Part shown: positions 48,465-57,495 of the stretch, in pieces
How positions within the stretch are numbered: position 1 is the stretch's first letter
Layout of the letters: each line of letters starts with the position of its first letter
Assembly: GCF_019967995.1 (NCBI RefSeq)
Contig: NZ_CP065377.1
Location: 2,852,001 to 2,916,000 of the forward strand
Origin: Faecalibacterium prausnitzii
GTDB lineage: Bacteria; Bacillota; Clostridia; Oscillospirales; Ruminococcaceae
Reading direction: 5' to 3'
Length of the DNA stretch: 64,000 nucleotides
Notes under the pieces: model-generated
The model's input: the letters and a program-made list of their open reading frames with translations, nothing else
Told to the model about the DNA's origin: nothing
Database searches by the model: none
Position numbers and translations under genes: made by a program

Positions 48465-49814
48465 TCACACATGACGGTAATGGAATTTCCGATCTTTGGT
48501 CACGAACATATACACGCTCACCCCCAGCGCGGCAAGCTCGGCGGCCGTGACGGCCAGCCAGATGCCATCCATCCCCATGAGCGCCGGCAGTGCGAAGACC
48601 GCCGCCACCTGAAACAACAGAGTGCGCAGAAAAGAGATGAGGGCGCTCGTCACACCGTCGCCCAGCGCGGTAAAGAAGGACGACGCATAGACATTGAAGC
48701 CCATGATGAGGAAGCTCAGCGCATAGAGCCGGAAGGCGTGGGTGGTCAGTGTCAGCAGTCCGGCATCGTAGCCCACGAAGATGCGGGCCACCTGCGGGAT
48801 GAGGAACATCGAACCGATGGTCATGACGACGGCCACCACGCCGATAAGGCGAAAGCTCATGGAATAAAGGTTGTGGACCTCCCGGTGATTGCGGGCACCG
48901 TAGTGGTAGCTGACGATGGGGGCGCTGCCAACGGCATAGCCCACGAAGACGGCCACAAAGAGGAAGGCCGCATACATGATGACGCCGTAAGCCGCCACGC
49001 CGTCCTCGCCCGCAAAGCGGAGGAGCTGGTAGTTGTAGAGGATATTGACCAGCGACATGGAGAGGTTGGTCATCAGCTCCGACGAGCCATTGATGCAGGC
49101 ATTCCGCAGGACGCGGCCATGGAACTTCGTCCGGCTCAGGTGCAGGCGGCTGGTGTTGTTCCGGTCCAGGAAATAGAACACCGGCAGCAGGCCGCCGACG
49201 ATCTGGCTGAGGAAGGTCGCGACCGCGGCACCCTCAACGCCCCAGCGGAGCACCCCCACCAGCACGACGTCCAGCACCATGTTGGTGCAGCCCGCGCCCA
49301 CGGTGAAAGCAAAGCCCAGGTGGGGCTTTTCGGCTGTGACGAAGAAACTCTGGAACATGTTCTGCAAGATAAAGGTCGGCAGGCTAACCAGCAGGATGCG
49401 GCCATACCGCAGCGCATAGTCCAGCATCTCTCCCTTTGCGCCCAGCAGCTCCGCCACCGGCTCAAGGATGACCAGACCAACGGCGCTGAACACGATGCCC
49501 GCTGCAAGGGCCGAACTGAGGAAGAGGCTGAAAAGTTCGTCCGCCTTTTTCCCATCGCCCTCGCCCAGCGTGATGCCCACGATGGCGCTGCCGCCGGTGC
49601 CCAGCATAAAGCCGACGCTGCCGATGAGCATGGGCAGCGGCATGATGAGGTTGACCGCCGCAAAGGCCGTCTTACCCACGAAGTTCGAGACGCACAGGCC
49701 GTCCACGATGCCGTAGATGGAGGTGAACAGCATCGTGCCGATGCAGGGCAACACGAACCGGATCAGCCGGGAATCGGTAAAGTGATCGGACAATTGGATG
49801 GGGTGCTTTGGCAT
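48465..49814 (-). CDS. MATE-family exporter, second
   Basis: A 449-residue, 12-helix MATE transporter. The start DSRLIRFVLPCIGTMLFTSIYGIVDGLCVSNFVGKTAFAAVNLIMP is typical of the MepA/DinF-like branch. It begins 12 bp after the 79-residue gene that ends the jet operon and may be co-transcribed with it, since no terminator separates them. GGAGAA lies before the ATG. Substrate unknown; association with the jet genes may be only positional. Confidence 0.9.
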   Translation of the reverse strand: MPKHPIQLSDHFTDSRLIRFVLPCIGTMLFTSIYGIVDGLCVSNFVGKTAFAAVNLIMPLPMLIGSVGFMLGTGGSAIVGITLGEGDGKKADELFSLFLSSALAAGIVFSAVGLVILEPVAELLGAKGEMLDYALRYGRILLVSLPTFILQNMFQSFFVTAEKPHLGFAFTVGAGCTNMVLDVVLVGVLRWGVEGAAVATFLSQIVGGLLPVFYFLDRNNTSRLHLSRTKFHGRVLRNACINGSSELMTNLSMSLVNILYNYQLLRFAGEDGVAAYGVIMYAAFLFVAVFVGYAVGSAPIVSYHYGARNHREVHNLYSMSFRLIGVVAVVMTIGSMFLIPQVARIFVGYDAGLLTLTTHAFRLYALSFLIMGFNVYASSFFTALGDGVTSALISFLRTLLFQVAAVFALPALMGMDGIWLAVTAAELAALGVSVYMFVTKDRKFHYRHV

Positions 49815-49826
49815 AAATTCTCCTTT

Positions 49827-50066
49827 TTACATCATCCCGCCGGGGCGCCAGCCGGTGCAGTAGCGGGCATAATCGCGGTCAGCCTGCTTGACGTAGAGGA
49901 CGAGTTCTTCCTTCCCCTCTTTGTTTTTCATCGTGCGGACCTTGGTGGGCAGGCTCTGGCGCTGGAGCAGCTCCAGTTCGTCGTTCAGCTCGTCCTCGTT
50001 GTCAAAGGTGTCGAGCCTGGTCCAGTGGGTGGCAAACAGCCAGAATTTTGCAAGGGTATCGCTCAT
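49827..50066 (-). CDS. 79-residue unknown protein in the jet operon
   Basis: A small acidic protein, not recognised: MSDTLAKFWLFATHWTRLDT, then an acidic run DNEDELNDELELL, and a lysine-rich middle (KVRTMKNKEGKEEL). No membrane segment. Its ATG overlaps the jetC stop by four bases (ATGA), so it is translationally coupled to the SMC gene. It occupies the position where Wadjet operons usually carry jetD, but is far too short to be a JetD nuclease and has no Toprim motif. Confidence 0.8.
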   Translation of the reverse strand: MSDTLAKFWLFATHWTRLDTFDNEDELNDELELLQRQSLPTKVRTMKNKEGKEELVLYVKQADRDYARYCTGWRPGGMM

Positions 50067-53000
50067 GGTTCAGTCTCCTTCTCCGGCGCGGGCTGCGGGG
50101 CCGTCAGCCGGTAAAACGGCGCGATGGCGTTGGCGTCGCCATGGCGCACGATGGAATAGGTGATGTCGCAATAGGGCTGGATGGCCGTGCTCTTCTCGAC
50201 GGTGGAGATGAGCAGGACCTGCAATTGCAAGCGGCGGAACAGCTCCATCATGGGGCGGATGCGGTCGCTGGTCATCTTGCTGAAGGCCTCGTCCAGCAGG
50301 ACCAGACGGATGCTGTTCTCGCTCTTCTGATAAATTTGCAGCAGCGAAGCGCAGATGGCCACATAGAACGGGGCCTGATTCTCGCCGCCGGAGGAATCGC
50401 GGCTGACACGGGACAGATACGCCTGCTGGCCGGAGACCGTGTTCGTGACCTTGATGTCGTAGTCCAGATAGGTGCGGTAATCCACATAGTCGGACAGGGT
50501 GGCACCGGAGGTGCTGCGGCCCTCCTGCCGGGCGCGGGTGTTCTCGTCCACGTCGGCCATGATCTTTTCCATCAGCTCATCCACCTGCCGCTCATAGACG
50601 GGGTCGGCCGTGGCGGCGAGGTTGTCCAGCGAGTCGGTGTCGGTCATCTGCTGGTTGCCCTTGTCCACGATGACCTGATAGAACGCGGCCAGCTGCGGGT
50701 CGCGGCTGGGTTCCAGCTCGAAGCGGTAGACCTCTTCGCCGTAGGTCAGCTGCTCCATCACCTTGTTCAGCTCCCGGAACTGGCGGCGGGCGTTGAAGAT
50801 GTCGTCCTTCATCCGGAAGAGGATGTCTTTCCGGAAGCGGTCCTTGCAGTCGCGCTGGGCCTGGTCCAGGCGGGCGGCGTAGCGCTCCAGGTCGATGCGG
50901 ACGAGGCTCTCGTGCTGGGCGCGGTACTGCTCGATGCCCGCAAGGCCCAGCGGATAATCGCAGACGTACCGCTCGTTGTACGCCTTCTGGGCCGGTTCCA
51001 GCGTGGCGGTGAGGTAGCTTTGCAGGGTGTCGTCCAGCTTGGTCTGCGCCTTTTCGGCCGTCTGGGCAGCGGCGCGGGCTGTGCGGCCCCCGGTCATGAG
51101 GCCCTTTTTGCGCTCCTGCGCCAGCGGCTCCAGCAGCGGATATTTTTCAAAGAAGGTCTGGGCCGCCCCGGCGCTCTGCTGCGCTGCGGCCACGGCCCGG
51201 CCCTGCTCTGCCGCGCAGGAAGCCAGCTGCTTTTCGCAGACACGGATATCGCCGCCTGCCTGTTCCACTGCCTTGCGGGCCGCTTCCCAGGCAGCTTCGC
51301 GGGTCTCCTCTTCCCGATACAGCTCCTGCAGCAGCGGGTTCTCCCGGCAGTCGGCCAGCTTCTGGGCCTGTGCCGCATAGTCGGCTTTGGCGGCAGCAAG
51401 GGCGTCCCGGCCCTCCCACAGGTCGGCCAGCGTTTCCAGTGCGCGGCCGCGCAGGATGTTCTGGTACTGGTCGTAGGCCGTCTTCAGCGACCGTTCGGCC
51501 TGCACGGCCTCGCGGCGGCGTTCACCGAGGGCCGTCAGTTCCTCTTCCAGCGCACCGGCGCGGGCGCGGCGGGCGTCCAGACCGATATACCGCTGGGGTC
51601 GGCGCAGGCGTTCCAGCCGGAACGGATGGTGGCGCAGCAGGTCACGGGTGGCGCTGTCCGGGAAATGTTCCAGCGTGTCCGGCGTCTCACAGCAGACGAT
51701 GCGGCGGAGGATGGTGTCCGCATACTGTGCGGCCAGCGGGTTCTCGCTCTCCACCTGAGCGGCAAGGCTGTCAGCCGGGCGGGTCTCCGCGCGGCGGTTG
51801 GCGGTGCGGATGCCCGGCGTATCCAGCAGGCTGATGGGCCCGACCGTTTCGCCCAGCGCCACAAAGGCGCTCTTGGCGGCGGCGTAGTGGTTGGGCGGGA
51901 CGAGGATATCGAACCGGCGGTCGCCGAGGCAGGCTTCCACGCAGTCCTGCCAGCTCTCGTCGGCCACGTTCAGCAGCTCACAGAAGATCTTTGCGTCCGG
52001 CGTCATGCCCCGGCTCTTCAGCTCGGCGTTGACAGCATCGCGGACTCTGGTGGCGGCATCGCCGTGGGGGTAGACCCACTTGCCGCCCGAAACCGCGTCC
52101 AGCTCGGCGCGCTTTTCTTCCTGCGCGCGGGCCAGGTCGGCGGCGTTCTGCCGCGCGGCAAAATACTGCTCTTCCAGCGGCTTTTCGAGCCGGTCCAGCG
52201 CTTCGGTCAGCGCGGGCAGCTGTTCCGCGGTCAGAGCGACCGGCCAGAGCGCCTTTTCGACCCCGAAGCCGCTGCGGGCCAGCACCGTCAGCAGGTTCGT
52301 GACGGCATCCGCCGTCTGTTCCAGCGCCGCCACCTTCCGGGCGGCGGCATCCAGTGCGGTCTTCCTGCGGGCCAGTTCCTCGGTCATGGCGTCCAGCGCA
52401 CGGCCCTCGCCGCTGGCCGAAGCTGCCCCATGGGCGGCCAGATAGGCCCGGCGGGCCTCGGCCTCGGCGTTCTTGGCCGCTTCATAGGCGGCGTTCCGCT
52501 CGGCCAGCTGGCGGCGTCCGGCGTCGAGATGCCCCTGCCAGACGGCGTCTTCTCCGGCGTCGGCCTCGGCGCGGGCCAGCAGGGCCGCGCCCCGGTTGAC
52601 CAGGGCGTCTGTCTCTCTGGATGCGGCTTCCCGGCCGTATTCCACGATCTGTTCCAGCGCGGCGGCGCGGGTCTGCGCCTCGGCCAGCACGGCGTGGAGG
52701 TTTTCCAGCTCCACCCGGTCGCCCTGCAGCGCGTCCAGATCCAGCTCCGGCTGGGGCAGGATGTATTGATACAGAAATTCCCGGAAGTTCGGGATCTCGT
52801 CCATGCTGGTGCCCATCTGGAACACCTCATTGAACTTTTTGCCCAGCGGGCTGGATGCGCGGCCGATGCCCAGCGCACGGCAGATGCGGTCCCGCGCCTC
52901 GCTGGGGCTGCGGGTATAGGAGAGCCGGCCCACAGCGGGCTTGAAATCCTCTCTGGCGCTGGGGGCCCCGGTGCGCGGGTCGAGGAAGGGCAGCTTTTCC

Positions 53001-53398
53001 AGCGTGATGCCGTCCTCGGAGATGTACCAGGTCTGGTCGCCGGGGTGAAGCTCCTGCATGGGCCCCTCGGACTCGACGCGCACCGCGATGACGAAGGGCG
53101 TCCGCTTGGCGCTGTCCCAGAACTCGGCACCGATATAGGCCACCGTCCGGCCGGGGCGGCGGTAGGCGTTCTCGCCGCGCTGCTTGGCGTGGACGGAGCC
53201 TTGCAGGGTGCGGCCGCTTTTTTTATTGCCCAGGGCATTGAAATTGCGGTTGGTGGTCAGGCAGTAGCGGATGGCGTCCAGGATGGTGGTCTTGCCCACG
53301 GCATTGACGCCGATCATATAGGTCAGGCGGGCACAGTCGAAGGTGACGTTCTCAAAGTTGTGCCAGTTGATGAGTTTCAGGCGTTTTAATTCGATCAT
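50063..53398 (-). CDS. jetC: JetC/MksB-like SMC ATPase
   Basis: A 1111-residue SMC-type protein, the motor of Wadjet/MksBEF condensins. Walker A is GVNAVGKTT at residues 30-38, the ABC signature SSGGENQ near residue 1001 and Walker B LVLLDEAF near residue 1034. The middle is long Ala/Glu/Arg-rich coiled coil, with a hinge-like globular part near residues 500-560 (FDILVPPNHYAAAKSAFVAL). In Wadjet it extrudes DNA loops and recognises small circular plasmids. Its ATG overlaps the jetB stop and its stop overlaps the 79-residue gene, four bases each. Confidence 0.93.
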   Translation of the reverse strand: MIELKRLKLINWHNFENVTFDCARLTYMIGVNAVGKTTILDAIRYCLTTNRNFNALGNKKSGRTLQGSVHAKQRGENAYRRPGRTVAYIGAEFWDSAKRTPFVIAVRVESEGPMQELHPGDQTWYISEDGITLEKLPFLDPRTGAPSAREDFKPAVGRLSYTRSPSEARDRICRALGIGRASSPLGKKFNEVFQMGTSMDEIPNFREFLYQYILPQPELDLDALQGDRVELENLHAVLAEAQTRAAALEQIVEYGREAASRETDALVNRGAALLARAEADAGEDAVWQGHLDAGRRQLAERNAAYEAAKNAEAEARRAYLAAHGAASASGEGRALDAMTEELARRKTALDAAARKVAALEQTADAVTNLLTVLARSGFGVEKALWPVALTAEQLPALTEALDRLEKPLEEQYFAARQNAADLARAQEEKRAELDAVSGGKWVYPHGDAATRVRDAVNAELKSRGMTPDAKIFCELLNVADESWQDCVEACLGDRRFDILVPPNHYAAAKSAFVALGETVGPISLLDTPGIRTANRRAETRPADSLAAQVESENPLAAQYADTILRRIVCCETPDTLEHFPDSATRDLLRHHPFRLERLRRPQRYIGLDARRARAGALEEELTALGERRREAVQAERSLKTAYDQYQNILRGRALETLADLWEGRDALAAAKADYAAQAQKLADCRENPLLQELYREEETREAAWEAARKAVEQAGGDIRVCEKQLASCAAEQGRAVAAAQQSAGAAQTFFEKYPLLEPLAQERKKGLMTGGRTARAAAQTAEKAQTKLDDTLQSYLTATLEPAQKAYNERYVCDYPLGLAGIEQYRAQHESLVRIDLERYAARLDQAQRDCKDRFRKDILFRMKDDIFNARRQFRELNKVMEQLTYGEEVYRFELEPSRDPQLAAFYQVIVDKGNQQMTDTDSLDNLAATADPVYERQVDELMEKIMADVDENTRARQEGRSTSGATLSDYVDYRTYLDYDIKVTNTVSGQQAYLSRVSRDSSGGENQAPFYVAICASLLQIYQKSENSIRLVLLDEAFSKMTSDRIRPMMELFRRLQLQVLLISTVEKSTAIQPYCDITYSIVRHGDANAIAPFYRLTAPQPAPEKETEP

Positions 53399-54000
53399 TC
53401 TTCATCCTCCGCACTGGATTCGCCCTCCGGGCGTTCGTACAGGGCCAGCTCGTTCCGGGTGCGGCTGCTCTCGGCAGCGGCATCGGCGAGGTCGGCATCC
53501 GGCAGCGCCAGCAGCACGGTCGGGAAGACCTCGATGCGGCTGTCCAGCCCGGTCAGACGGCCCACGGGCCGGGCCAGATTGTACCGGCGCAGGGTGCGCA
53601 GCAGCTTTTCCAGCGTGAGCTGGTCCAGCCGCCGGGGCAGGTTCATTTTTTGCAGTTCGGCCTGCACTTCTTCCACCGTGACCAGAACCTGGTCTGCACT
53701 GGCCGAGAGGCTCTCCCGCTTTTGCAGGTAGAGCAGGCGCAGCACCAGCAGCAGGATGCTCTCGTATTTCAGCAGCCGGGCCTGGCTGCCCTCGTGCTCG
53801 TTGACGAGCGCCGCCGCCTGCAGCGGGGCCGGGTAGAGCAGGACCGCATAGCCCAGCGGCGCGAACACGGCCCGCACCTCGTTCAGGTGGTCCTGCACAT
53901 AGAGATACTTCGACCGCTGGTCCTCCACACTGCCCAGCAGAAAGCAGTGGTTGAGCAGATAGTTTGCGGTCTCTTCCAGCAGTTTATTCGTTTCGGCCAT
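53395..54000 (-). CDS. jetB: JetB/MksE-like subunit (DUF4194)
   Basis: A 201-residue DUF4194 protein, the MukE/MksE-like kite subunit that binds the kleisin JetA. Seen: KLLEETANYLLNHCFLLGSV at the start, LKYESILLLVLRLLYLQKRE, a winged-helix-like EVQAELQKMNLPRRLDQLTLEKLLRTLRRYNLARPVG, and an acidic tail (ESSAEDEE). It overlaps jetA by 17 bases and jetC by four. The family and operon position make the call firm. Confidence 0.9.
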   Translation of the reverse strand: MAETNKLLEETANYLLNHCFLLGSVEDQRSKYLYVQDHLNEVRAVFAPLGYAVLLYPAPLQAAALVNEHEGSQARLLKYESILLLVLRLLYLQKRESLSASADQVLVTVEEVQAELQKMNLPRRLDQLTLEKLLRTLRRYNLARPVGRLTGLDSRIEVFPTVLLALPDADLADAAAESSRTRNELALYERPEGESSAEDEE

Positions 54001-55414
54001 GGGGTTCCTCCTTGCGGGGCATCAGGATAAATTCTTCGAACCGGAAGCCGCCCCGCTCGACCCACTTCCCGGTCCGTTCGATGTCATAGTCCCGCCGCGG
54101 CGACTGCGAGTAGGTGTGCAGGCCGATGATGCGGGCAAAGTCGCTGGGATATTCGTCGGCCAGCGTGGACGCCGCCACCTGCCTGCGGGCGGCAAGGGCC
54201 TGCTGCGCCAGCAGGGCCACGTTCTCTTCGGTCACAGCCATCCGGGCGTATTCCAGCAGGAGCTGCTGCTCCTTTTGCAGCTGTTCCGGGTCCAGCGTTC
54301 CGGTCTCCACCGGCCTGAGCGGCACCTCGCTGCGGGGCGCGGCGGGCGGGTAGAGCGGCTTTTCGCCGAAGACCTGCACCGGGTAAAGGTGCAGATGCTT
54401 TGCCACCGGGCCGTCATCCGGTTCGAACAGCTGGTCCGGCGTCTTGATCTCCTCGGCATAGCGGCGGAGCAGCGCCGTGACGCTGCCCTGCGCCGAGCGG
54501 TCGCTCAGCAGCAGAAACTGCGCCCGCTGCACGGCACGCTTGCGGTAGCGGATGTGGCTGGCGTCGATCTGCTTCATCAGGCCGCTCATCTCTTCCAGCG
54601 CATCCCGCTGCTTCTGGATGAGAGCCCGCACCGCCGGGGCGGCCTCGTTCGGCGCACAGCGCTCCACGCGGGCATAATCCAGCGCCAGCTGCGGCAGATA
54701 GTTTGCCTCGCAGTCGTCCAGCCCCTCTTCGAGGTAGGCGCGGTAGTTGAACAGGTTGTCGCTGGTCTTGAACCGGTGGTATGCCGCCGCAACGACCTTT
54801 TCCTCGTACTGGTCGAACAGTTCCAGCACCTCCTGCGGGGTGCGGTTGCGGGTGAGCCGGTCGATGTAGTGGCCGATGGAGGCATTGAGCGCACGGAGCG
54901 ACTTGTTCAGCGCTTCGAGGTCGGACGCGACCTCCCGCAGGACGTTCTCGTAGGGGCTCTTCTCCTCCCCGATGCCTCGCAGCAGCTGCCAGGCCTTGTA
55001 CAGCTTGCCGGTATAGGTGACGACGCGCGGGTTCAGGATCTCTTCCAGCGCTTCCAGCAGAGGCGTCACCTCCGGCACAAAGGCCAGCGAAGGTTCCTCC
55101 TCATAGCTGCCGGGCTGCTCTTCCAGCCAGCCGGTGCGCCGCAGCCGCAGCAGAAAGCCCAGCGCCAGCAGATGCGGGTCGCGGGTGGGCTGCTCGGCTT
55201 CGTCTCCGGCGTCGTCGGCGTCCAGCGCCAGCGGCTTTGCCAGCGCCGCAAAGTAATCCTCCGCGCGGGAGACGGCTTCGGCGCGGGAGATGCTGTAATC
55301 CGCCGTGTGGCGGCACTCCTCCCACAGCAGCAGGAGCAGCTCGGCATAAAACGCCCGGTTCGGCCCCGCCAGCGGGCGGAACAGACGCGGGGAGACCAGT
55401 TCAAACAGCTGCAT
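53984..55414 (-). CDS. jetA: JetA/MksF-like kleisin subunit
   Basis: A 476-residue protein of the JetA (DUF5716) type: MQLFELVSPRLFRPLAGPNR at the start, a long helical region (VASDLEALNKSLRALNASIG) and a C-terminal winged-helix-like part. It is the kleisin bridging the SMC heads. First gene of a tightly overlapping jetA-jetB-jetC-79-residue operon. The ATG at 55414 follows AAAGGA; codons upstream are in the promoter region. No jetD follows, which is unusual for a defence-type Wadjet locus. Confidence 0.9.
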   Translation of the reverse strand: MQLFELVSPRLFRPLAGPNRAFYAELLLLLWEECRHTADYSISRAEAVSRAEDYFAALAKPLALDADDAGDEAEQPTRDPHLLALGFLLRLRRTGWLEEQPGSYEEEPSLAFVPEVTPLLEALEEILNPRVVTYTGKLYKAWQLLRGIGEEKSPYENVLREVASDLEALNKSLRALNASIGHYIDRLTRNRTPQEVLELFDQYEEKVVAAAYHRFKTSDNLFNYRAYLEEGLDDCEANYLPQLALDYARVERCAPNEAAPAVRALIQKQRDALEEMSGLMKQIDASHIRYRKRAVQRAQFLLLSDRSAQGSVTALLRRYAEEIKTPDQLFEPDDGPVAKHLHLYPVQVFGEKPLYPPAAPRSEVPLRPVETGTLDPEQLQKEQQLLLEYARMAVTEENVALLAQQALAARRQVAASTLADEYPSDFARIIGLHTYSQSPRRDYDIERTGKWVERGGFRFEEFILMPRKEEPHGRNE

Positions 55415-55448
55415 CAAAAGATCCTTTCTTTCGCAAATTTCCGCCTCT

Positions 55449-55477
55449 ATTGTACCACAAAAAACAGGCCCTCTCAA
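55449..55477 (-). promoter_or_regulatory. Promoter of the jet operon
   Basis: On the minus strand TTGAGA (55472-55477), 17-bp spacer, TACAAT (55449-55454), 35 bp before jetA. Confidence 0.7.
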
Positions 55478-55683: not shown

Positions 55684-57339
55684 TTACAGTTCCTGATATG
55701 CGCTCATCATGGCGGGGATGAACTGCTTTTTGCGGCTGACGACGCCGGGCAGGGTCCAGCTGCCGTCTTCGGCGGGCTGGGTCTCAAAACCGTCCGACAG
55801 CACCTCGGCGGCATAGCGGCCTTCGCAGATGACGACGCTCTCCTCCTTGGGCACATCGGTCAGCAGCATATAGATATCCTCCACATTCTGCTTGTTGCGG
55901 GCCTCTTCGAGGTAGGGTTTGAGCAATTTTTCGGCGGCCAGCAGGTTCTTGCGGGTCATGTAGCTGCCCTGCGCCACGCCGAAGCGGATATCGCCGCACA
56001 TGAAGACCTTGAAGTCCTGCAAAAAGACCTCTTCGGGGGTCTTGCCGTCCAGTTTTTCACCGGCTTCGAACATTTCTGTGGAAAACTCGTCGATGTCCAC
56101 ACCGGCGATCTGGGCCAGACGCTTGGCCGCCGCCACATCCACCGGGGTGCAGGTGGGGCTGCGGAAGACCAGCGTATCCGACAGGATGGCCGCCAGCAGC
56201 AGACCGGCGGTCTGGGCCGGGATCTCCACGCCGTTCTCGTCGTACATCTGGGTGATGATGGTGGCAGTGCAGCCCACCGGCTGATTGCGGAAGTAGACCG
56301 GGCCGCTGGTCTCCAGACTGCCGATGCGGTGGTGGTCGATAATCTCCAGGATCTCCGCCTGGTCGAAGCCCTCCACGGCCTGGGTGGCCTCGTTGTGGTC
56401 CACCAGGATGATGCGGCGCTTGCGCAGGGCGATGATGTTGCGGCGGCTGACCATACCGCAGTATTTGCCCTCTTCATCGAGGATGGGGAAATAGCGGTGG
56501 CGCACCTTGGCCATGACGCGCATGACATCCGCCACCGGCGTGACGAGGGTGAACTTCAGGATGTCTTCGCGGGTCATATAATAGGAGATGGGGGCGCACT
56601 GGCTGATGAGCTTGCCAGCCGCGTAGGTATCGTAGGGGGTCGTCATGATGGCGACGCCCATTTCGTCGGCGATGCGCTGGATGGTGTGGCCTACCTTGGA
56701 GCCGTTGCAGATGATGAGGAGGGAGGCCTCCTTCTCAATGGCGCACAGCTGGCTCTCGTACCGGTTGGTCAGGATGACGATGTCGCCCTTTTCCACATTG
56801 CTTTCCAGCATTTCGGGGGTGGCGGTGCCGATCTTGATGTGGCCGGTGGTGCAGACGGCGTTCTCGTCGCCCACCACCATGGTGCCGCCCAGCGTTTCGA
56901 GGATGTTCCGGAAGCTGGTCTGGCTCTTGGCCAGAACGCCGGTGTCGAAGACGTCCATGTTGGCGGTCGCGATGTCCTTGACCGTGATGATGCCCTCCAG
57001 ATCGTTTTCTGCGCTGGTGATGGGCAGGGTGTCGATCTTCTGGTCGCGCATGATCTCCCACGCACGGCGCAGGCTGGTGGCACCGGGGATGCCGGGCATC
57101 TCGCGGTAATCCACATCCCGGATCTTCGGGTTGACGTCGGTGCACATGCGGGGCGGGGTCACGCCGAACTTTTTCAGGACGAACTCGGTCTCCTGGTTCA
57201 TCCGGCCCGCGCGGCGCGCCTCACAGACAAGGTCGCTGGTCTTGTTTTTCAACTCCGCATACGCAATGGCGGAGCAGATGGAGTCGGTGTCCGGGTTGCG
57301 GTGCCCGATGACCACGACTTTATGGGCTGCCTTTGGCAT
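55684..57339 (-). CDS. ppaC: Manganese-dependent (family II) pyrophosphatase with CBS and DRTGG domains
   Basis: Hydrolyses pyrophosphate to drive biosynthesis. The 551-residue enzyme has a split DHH catalytic domain: VIGHRNPDTDSICSAIAY near residue 11 and, after a large insert, VDHNEATQAVEGF and IDHHRIG near residue 345, then the DHHA2 domain. The insert (residues about 70-300) is a regulatory CBS-DRTGG-CBS module (IDTLPITSAENDLEGIITVK ... YFPILDEEGKYCGMVSRRN), which in related enzymes inhibits with AMP/ADP and activates with ATP or diadenosine polyphosphates. GAGAGG precedes the ATG at 57339. Confidence 0.95.
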   Translation of the reverse strand: MPKAAHKVVVIGHRNPDTDSICSAIAYAELKNKTSDLVCEARRAGRMNQETEFVLKKFGVTPPRMCTDVNPKIRDVDYREMPGIPGATSLRRAWEIMRDQKIDTLPITSAENDLEGIITVKDIATANMDVFDTGVLAKSQTSFRNILETLGGTMVVGDENAVCTTGHIKIGTATPEMLESNVEKGDIVILTNRYESQLCAIEKEASLLIICNGSKVGHTIQRIADEMGVAIMTTPYDTYAAGKLISQCAPISYYMTREDILKFTLVTPVADVMRVMAKVRHRYFPILDEEGKYCGMVSRRNIIALRKRRIILVDHNEATQAVEGFDQAEILEIIDHHRIGSLETSGPVYFRNQPVGCTATIITQMYDENGVEIPAQTAGLLLAAILSDTLVFRSPTCTPVDVAAAKRLAQIAGVDIDEFSTEMFEAGEKLDGKTPEEVFLQDFKVFMCGDIRFGVAQGSYMTRKNLLAAEKLLKPYLEEARNKQNVEDIYMLLTDVPKEESVVICEGRYAAEVLSDGFETQPAEDGSWTLPGVVSRKKQFIPAMMSAYQEL

Positions 57340-57495
57340 AATCTTTCCTCTCTCTATGGAATCGTTCATTCATTTACCTTCTTCTGTGCTGCACACAGAA
57401 GTCCGGTTTCATTCTATCACATCCCACCGCAGGGGTAAAGGGAACCGACGGCACTTTGTTTCTTAAAATTTTGCGAGAATCTTGGATACAACATC

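Follow-up and report, generated by a model that had tools for sequence, protein, structure and literature searches.

Here we describe an operon, jetABC, in a 64,000-nucleotide stretch of the Faecalibacterium prausnitzii chromosome (NZ_CP065377.1; hereafter the window, meaning the whole stretch) that encodes the kleisin JetA, the KITE protein JetB and the SMC ATPase JetC of a Wadjet type I system, and for which no gene for the Wadjet nuclease JetD was found in the locus or in the rest of the closed 2.94-Mb genome. Orthologous JetD-less operons form one clade within the genus and are under purifying selection, and on balance we lean slightly towards JetABC being a nuclease-free, MksBEF-like second condensin that acts on the chromosome.

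By their Pfam and PADLOC matches and their overlapping open reading frames (ORFs), jetA, jetB and jetC are predicted to form one operon of the Wadjet type I class, with the PADLOC models JetA1, JetB1 and JetC1 all matching (Table 1). The overlaps are 17 bp between jetA and jetB, 4 bp between jetB and jetC, and 4 bp (ATGA) between jetC and a downstream ORF of 79 codons, and JetC has its Walker A (GVNAVGKT, residue 30), signature (SSGGEN, residue 1002) and Walker B (LVLLDEAF, residue 1032) motifs. ORF calls, both databases and the motifs thus bear out the initial annotation, which was made from the letters and had described three intact genes overlapping by 4–17 bases and a 79-residue ORF that overlaps jetC by ATGA, whose coordinates and overlap we confirm. 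For jetA we use the ATG at 55414, from which orthologues align at residue 1, and the frame is open further upstream. No sequence match to JetC (cut-off 1e-5) or JetA (cut-off 0.01) was found among solved structures. The same genome also encodes a canonical full-length Smc (1001 bits).

JetD was sought with Pfam JetD_C and with a profile made from an alignment of 16 JetD proteins, which was searched against genomes at E ≤ 0.1. In the closed genome, JetD_C gave three matches, all below threshold (best 17.3 bits against a cut-off of 22), and the profile gave none, which confirms the initial statement that the window has no jetD and extends it to the remainder of the genome; a jetD elsewhere, which the initial annotation had named as counting against its reading, was looked for in this way and not found. 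The 17-bit JetD_C match (L001) was rejected as JetD: it falls in a short Toprim-like ORF of 205 residues, which we take to be an RNase M5-like Toprim protein. The 16-protein profile detects a JetD in 8 of the 31 Faecalibacterium genomes, and at its threshold finds none anywhere in 11 of the 15 genomes with orthologous jetABC, the window's own included.

When JetC loci are compared by JetD profiles, a JetD ORF lies beside jetC in 26 of the 26 other loci examined (10 in L043–L052, 12 in L119–L130 and 4 in L164–L167) against 0 of the 15 orthologous loci; two of these others (L043 and L045) were also typed with PADLOC, the remainder being JetC loci by similarity. A tblastn search of the 15 loci for a JetD remnant, with the 16 JetD proteins as queries, gave five matches at E ≤ 1 (best 0.018 in L035, then 0.030 in L033, at the same spot just before jetA, and in L036), all of which we rejected as chance. 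The locus of G011 (L042) stops just past the small gene and by itself leaves room for JetD beyond, and a search of that genome, which is 79% complete, found no JetD. By eye, and with the ORFs not each scanned against Pfam, we saw no shared replacement nuclease beside jetABC among the upstream ORFs of 13 of the 15 loci and the downstream ORFs of 14 fetched loci and the window. An N-terminal JetB motif that is said to touch JetD is absent here and also in G027, which carries JetD, and is therefore uninformative.

We searched for JetC in 100 relatives, including the 31 genus genomes, and found orthologous jetABC in 15 Faecalibacterium genomes (the window's own and 14 others, whose JetC is 66–93% identical). 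The nearest relative found outside this JetD-less clade is the JetC of G027, at 45% identity; outside the genus, the best JetC among 396 family genomes reaches 34% over partial length, and the best among 391 genomes of the class reaches 41%, in G592. In a tree of 32 JetC proteins, which was built with a quick method and rooted by choice, the 15 JetD-less sequences make up one side of a branch with a Shimodaira–Hasegawa-like approximate likelihood ratio test (SH-aLRT) support of 100, and G027 and then G592, both JetD-bearing, come next to them.

In an rpoB tree that covers 26 of the 31 genus genomes (left out are G002, G008, G017, G019 and G025), all 14 species of one clade (clade A) carry jetABC, as does a single species, G011, among the nine of its sister clade, and a DNA tree of the 15 jetC genes recovers the same main groups. 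JetD-bearing loci are patchier, being found in 8 of the 31 genomes and, within clade A, in 4 of its 14 species. For four of the five unplaced genomes, the product of dhh, the gene upstream of jetA, is 80–82% identical to that of the window, like most of the sister clade; G019 is left unplaced. The simplest reading of these trees is that JetD would have been lost a single time, no later than in the ancestor of the two sister clades, and jetABC afterwards in most of the sister clade. Alternatively, jetABC in G011 may be a second gain by transfer, and JetD may have been lost before the genes reached Faecalibacterium.

Ratios of non-synonymous to synonymous substitution rates (dN/dS) for jetC lie at 0.015–0.193 across 15 pairs within clade A and reach 0.344 in the comparison with G011; the clade A values are 0.021–0.162 for jetA and 0–0.148 for jetB. 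For comparison, dhh gives 0–0.129 (13 pairs), the downstream mate gene 0.079–0.583 (15 pairs) and rpoB 0.017–0.094 (16 pairs), so that among near species jetC is about as constrained as dhh. Full-length jetB and jetC are found in all 15 loci and full-length jetA in 14, and the Walker A, signature and Walker B motifs of JetC are identical in all 15.

The JetD-less loci form a clade, their groups match those of rpoB, all 14 placed clade A species retain them and their genes are under purifying selection, which fits a motor retained to work without the nuclease, as has been proposed for Pseudomonas MksBEF. In the explanation we favour, a type I Wadjet motor of JetA, JetB and JetC would have lost JetD (loss, rather than gain, being the presumed direction), most simply in one event no later than the common ancestor of the two sister clades, and would have been kept since as a nuclease-free SMC complex. 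It would still extrude DNA loops using ATP, as in Wadjet and MukBEF, but with the cutting step gone its output would be something other than DNA cleavage, and it would act beside Smc as a second condensin, as MksBEF does beside SMC in Pseudomonas aeruginosa. The initial annotation had offered a nuclease-free MksBEF-like condensin for chromosome upkeep as one of two readings: the nuclease-free trio is favoured by the nested clade, inheritance along rpoB lines, selection and intact motifs, and the chromosomal role is the part we infer. More tentatively, one traceable event inside this gut genus may have made a housekeeping condensin out of a defence machine, with JetD-less JetABC becoming fixed in the management of the chromosome or of circular DNA, possibly restraining circles without cutting them.

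Wadjet type I (JetABCD, or MksBEFG in Corynebacterium) shares with the window the kleisin–KITE–SMC order A-B-C, the overlapping gene ends and the Pfam and PADLOC matches, and differs in having the nuclease. According to the consulted parts of a study in Corynebacterium (PMC10123090), the nuclease MksG binds the kleisin, and MksBEF without MksG has DNA-stimulated ATPase activity, which makes a nuclease-less trio biochemically plausible; there, however, deletion of mksB or mksF has the same plasmid effect as deletion of mksG. P. aeruginosa MksBEF is likewise an SMC, kleisin and KITE complex without a nuclease beside a canonical Smc, that species having both SMC and MksBEF condensins (excerpts of PMC7485682 and PMC10586767). 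The window's JetB scores 22.3 bits with the Pfam MksE model PF21980, below its cut-off of 27, and the nearest JetC relatives found carry JetD (in a tree that holds no Pseudomonas MksB), which suggests a loss separate from that of Pseudomonas MksBEF. Excerpts of the review (PMC10586767) speculate that MukBEF and probably MksBEF have a Wadjet ancestor, and that loss of JetD gave rise to the MksBEF of P. aeruginosa. Closest at hand is the jetABCD operon of G027, whose JetC is the nearest relative found outside the clade, but which has a JetD of 394 residues directly after jetC and, in its 20-kb stretch, neither the DHH nor the MATE gene of the window. A single genus thus offers sequences of a JetD-bearing relative, of the JetD-less clade and of near species that have or lack the complex, so that the proposed change from a plasmid-killing system into a condensin can be tested by comparison and deletion, and JetABC matches alone should not be taken to mark a plasmid-defence system. 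We found no report on Wadjet in Faecalibacterium by title in the open-licence literature, and one may exist elsewhere.

Several observations weigh against a condensin kept across the clade. Orthologous jetABC is absent from 16 of the 31 genus genomes, several of them incomplete metagenome-assembled genomes, and the complex is therefore not essential in the genus; the five genomes outside the rpoB tree all lack it, so that the figure of 14 out of 14 covers placed genomes only. Among distant species, for which dN/dS is rough owing to saturation, jetC is somewhat less constrained than dhh, jetA is broken into two frames in G030, and the deeper part of the JetC tree carries a long-branch warning. 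In addition, four of the 15 genomes (G012, G021, G023 and G026) carry, at a different locus, a second and complete JetABCD that could provide JetD in trans. The G030 split lies at about 12055–13478 of L037, in a single-contig genome, and may be real or a sequencing error.

The main rival to the condensin reading, which we regard as rather unlikely but worth serious consideration, is that plasmids or other circular molecules are still the target of JetABC. In place of cleavage by JetD, the complex might trap, compact or silence such DNA, as proposed for Smc5/6, or enlist an unrelated nuclease whose gene lies elsewhere. Its motor motifs are intact, the 26 other JetC loci all carry JetD, like plasmid-defence systems, and Smc5/6, a eukaryotic complex that we liken to JetABC by description and not by sequence, is described in excerpts of PMC10586767 as an SMC complex believed to hold circular DNA in check through compaction. 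However, all 14 placed species of clade A retain jetABC, whereas JetD-bearing loci occur in 4 of these 14, and no nuclease gene shared beside the operon was apparent by eye.

The second reading of the initial annotation, a Wadjet variant with a new small partner, would make the 79-residue protein a subunit or effector that replaces JetD. With 390 database relatives at E ≤ 0.001 and a dN/dS of 0.12–0.36 over 6 pairs, the ORF is a real gene. It overlaps jetC in the window, follows jetC in 7 of the 15 jetABC genomes and, among placed genomes, is confined to the same two sister clades as JetD-less jetABC, so that the two may have been linked at origin, in one ancestor. Nonetheless, it was not found in the other 8 jetABC genomes, where jetC dN/dS is still 0.015–0.13 (8 pairs), and 11 of the 16 genomes that lack orthologous jetABC do have it (among these 16 we count G027, itself without the gene). 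Twelve loci from these 11 genomes were read: none showed a match to jetA, jetB or jetC, dhh and the small gene lie on one contig in 10, and the solo genes have a median dN/dS of 0.18 (range 0.07–0.61, from 65 of 66 pairs, the remaining pair having diverged too little). As each is retained without the other under purifying selection, jetABC and the small gene can be kept separately, and conservation with jetABC, as expected of an obligate fourth subunit, is not what we see. The four-gene order whose conservation the initial annotation proposed to check therefore holds in fewer than half of the loci, and its small-partner reading largely fails; we consider a replacement of JetD by this protein improbable.

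The small protein is instead probably encoded by a genus-specific neighbour and is not a subunit. Its relatives occur in 18 of the 31 genus genomes, and in a family sample of 297 genomes it was matched in 4, all Faecalibacterium (1 of 126 genera). An AlphaFold model (mean predicted local distance difference test score 74) has an N-terminal helix followed by a beta-alpha-beta-beta-alpha arrangement; structural matches, including ferredoxin-like PII, type III secretion system ring proteins and 2hfv, are not telling, and its profile has one match among solved structures, at E 0.8. G017 holds two copies on two contigs (L094 and L095; 66% and 64% identical to the window's), a paralogue or contamination.

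Two further explanations fare worst. That a complete Wadjet at another site supplies JetD in trans, for which the second JetABCD in 4 of the 15 genomes speaks, is very unlikely, since the other 11 have no JetD at E ≤ 0.1 and, in the window's own closed genome, it would need a JetD beyond recognition by the 16-sequence profile; moreover, the JetC of the JetD-less operon matches that of the second JetABCD in pieces only, at 24–36% identity. A decaying Wadjet remnant, to which the missing JetD, the split jetA of G030 and the absence of the complex from most of the sister clade would point, is just as hard to credit, given the full-length genes noted above and a low dN/dS, as purifying selection speaks against a remnant. 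Distant complete JetABCD loci (jetD of 418–421 residues) were seen in seven Faecalibacterium genomes (L044–L050), four of which also hold the JetD-less operon.

Table 1. Features of the jetABC locus and its neighbours, in window coordinates.
Feature	Position	Strand	Evidence or remark
jetA (kleisin), 476 residues	53984–55414	minus	Pfam JetA PF18982, 2.2e-82; PADLOC JetA1 PDLC00458, 801 bits
jetB (KITE), 201 residues	53395–54000	minus	Pfam DUF4194, 4.1e-17 (62.8 bits); PADLOC JetB1, 224 bits
jetC (SMC ATPase), 1111 residues	50063–53398	minus	SbcC_Walker_B 3.9e-22, AAA_29, SMC_hinge; PADLOC JetC1, 1900 bits
Small ORF, 79 residues	49827–50066	minus	overlaps jetC stop by ATGA
MATE-family transporter, downstream neighbour, outside the system	48465–49814	minus	Pfam MatE, 6.2e-40
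DHH/DHHA2 protein with CBS and DRTGG domains, upstream neighbour and synteny anchor	55684–57369	minus	Pfam
Putative -10 element TACAAT, within TGTGGTACAAT, of the jetABC promoter	55449–55454	minus	our motif reading

Upstream of jetA, the sequence GTGGTACAAT (55440–55460 in the window) is present in all 14 loci inspected, a set that leaves out G030. By our reading, a TACAAT- or TATAAT-like element also precedes the solo 79-residue gene in 10 of 12 loci (not in G020 and G008), and one of the two promoter-like elements may derive from the other. G013 has two rpoB loci (L133 and L159), which may mean a mixed assembly.

The DHH gene, presumably encoding a pyrophosphatase, is present in 13 of the 15 jetABC loci, and a MATE gene lies near jetC in 14, inverted in five (L035, L036, L037, L038 and L041); both flank jetABC in 13, L036 having MATE only and the 8.3-kb L042 neither. 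ORFs of 172–193 residues with lipoprotein-like starts, in which a stretch closes with C at about residue 25, lie on the same strand within about 0.9 kb upstream of jetA in 4 of the 13 loci read (L030, L036, L038 and L039) and not in the window. Across L029–L041, the DHH gene and jetA lie about 0.3 to 4 kb apart, with differing ORFs between them.

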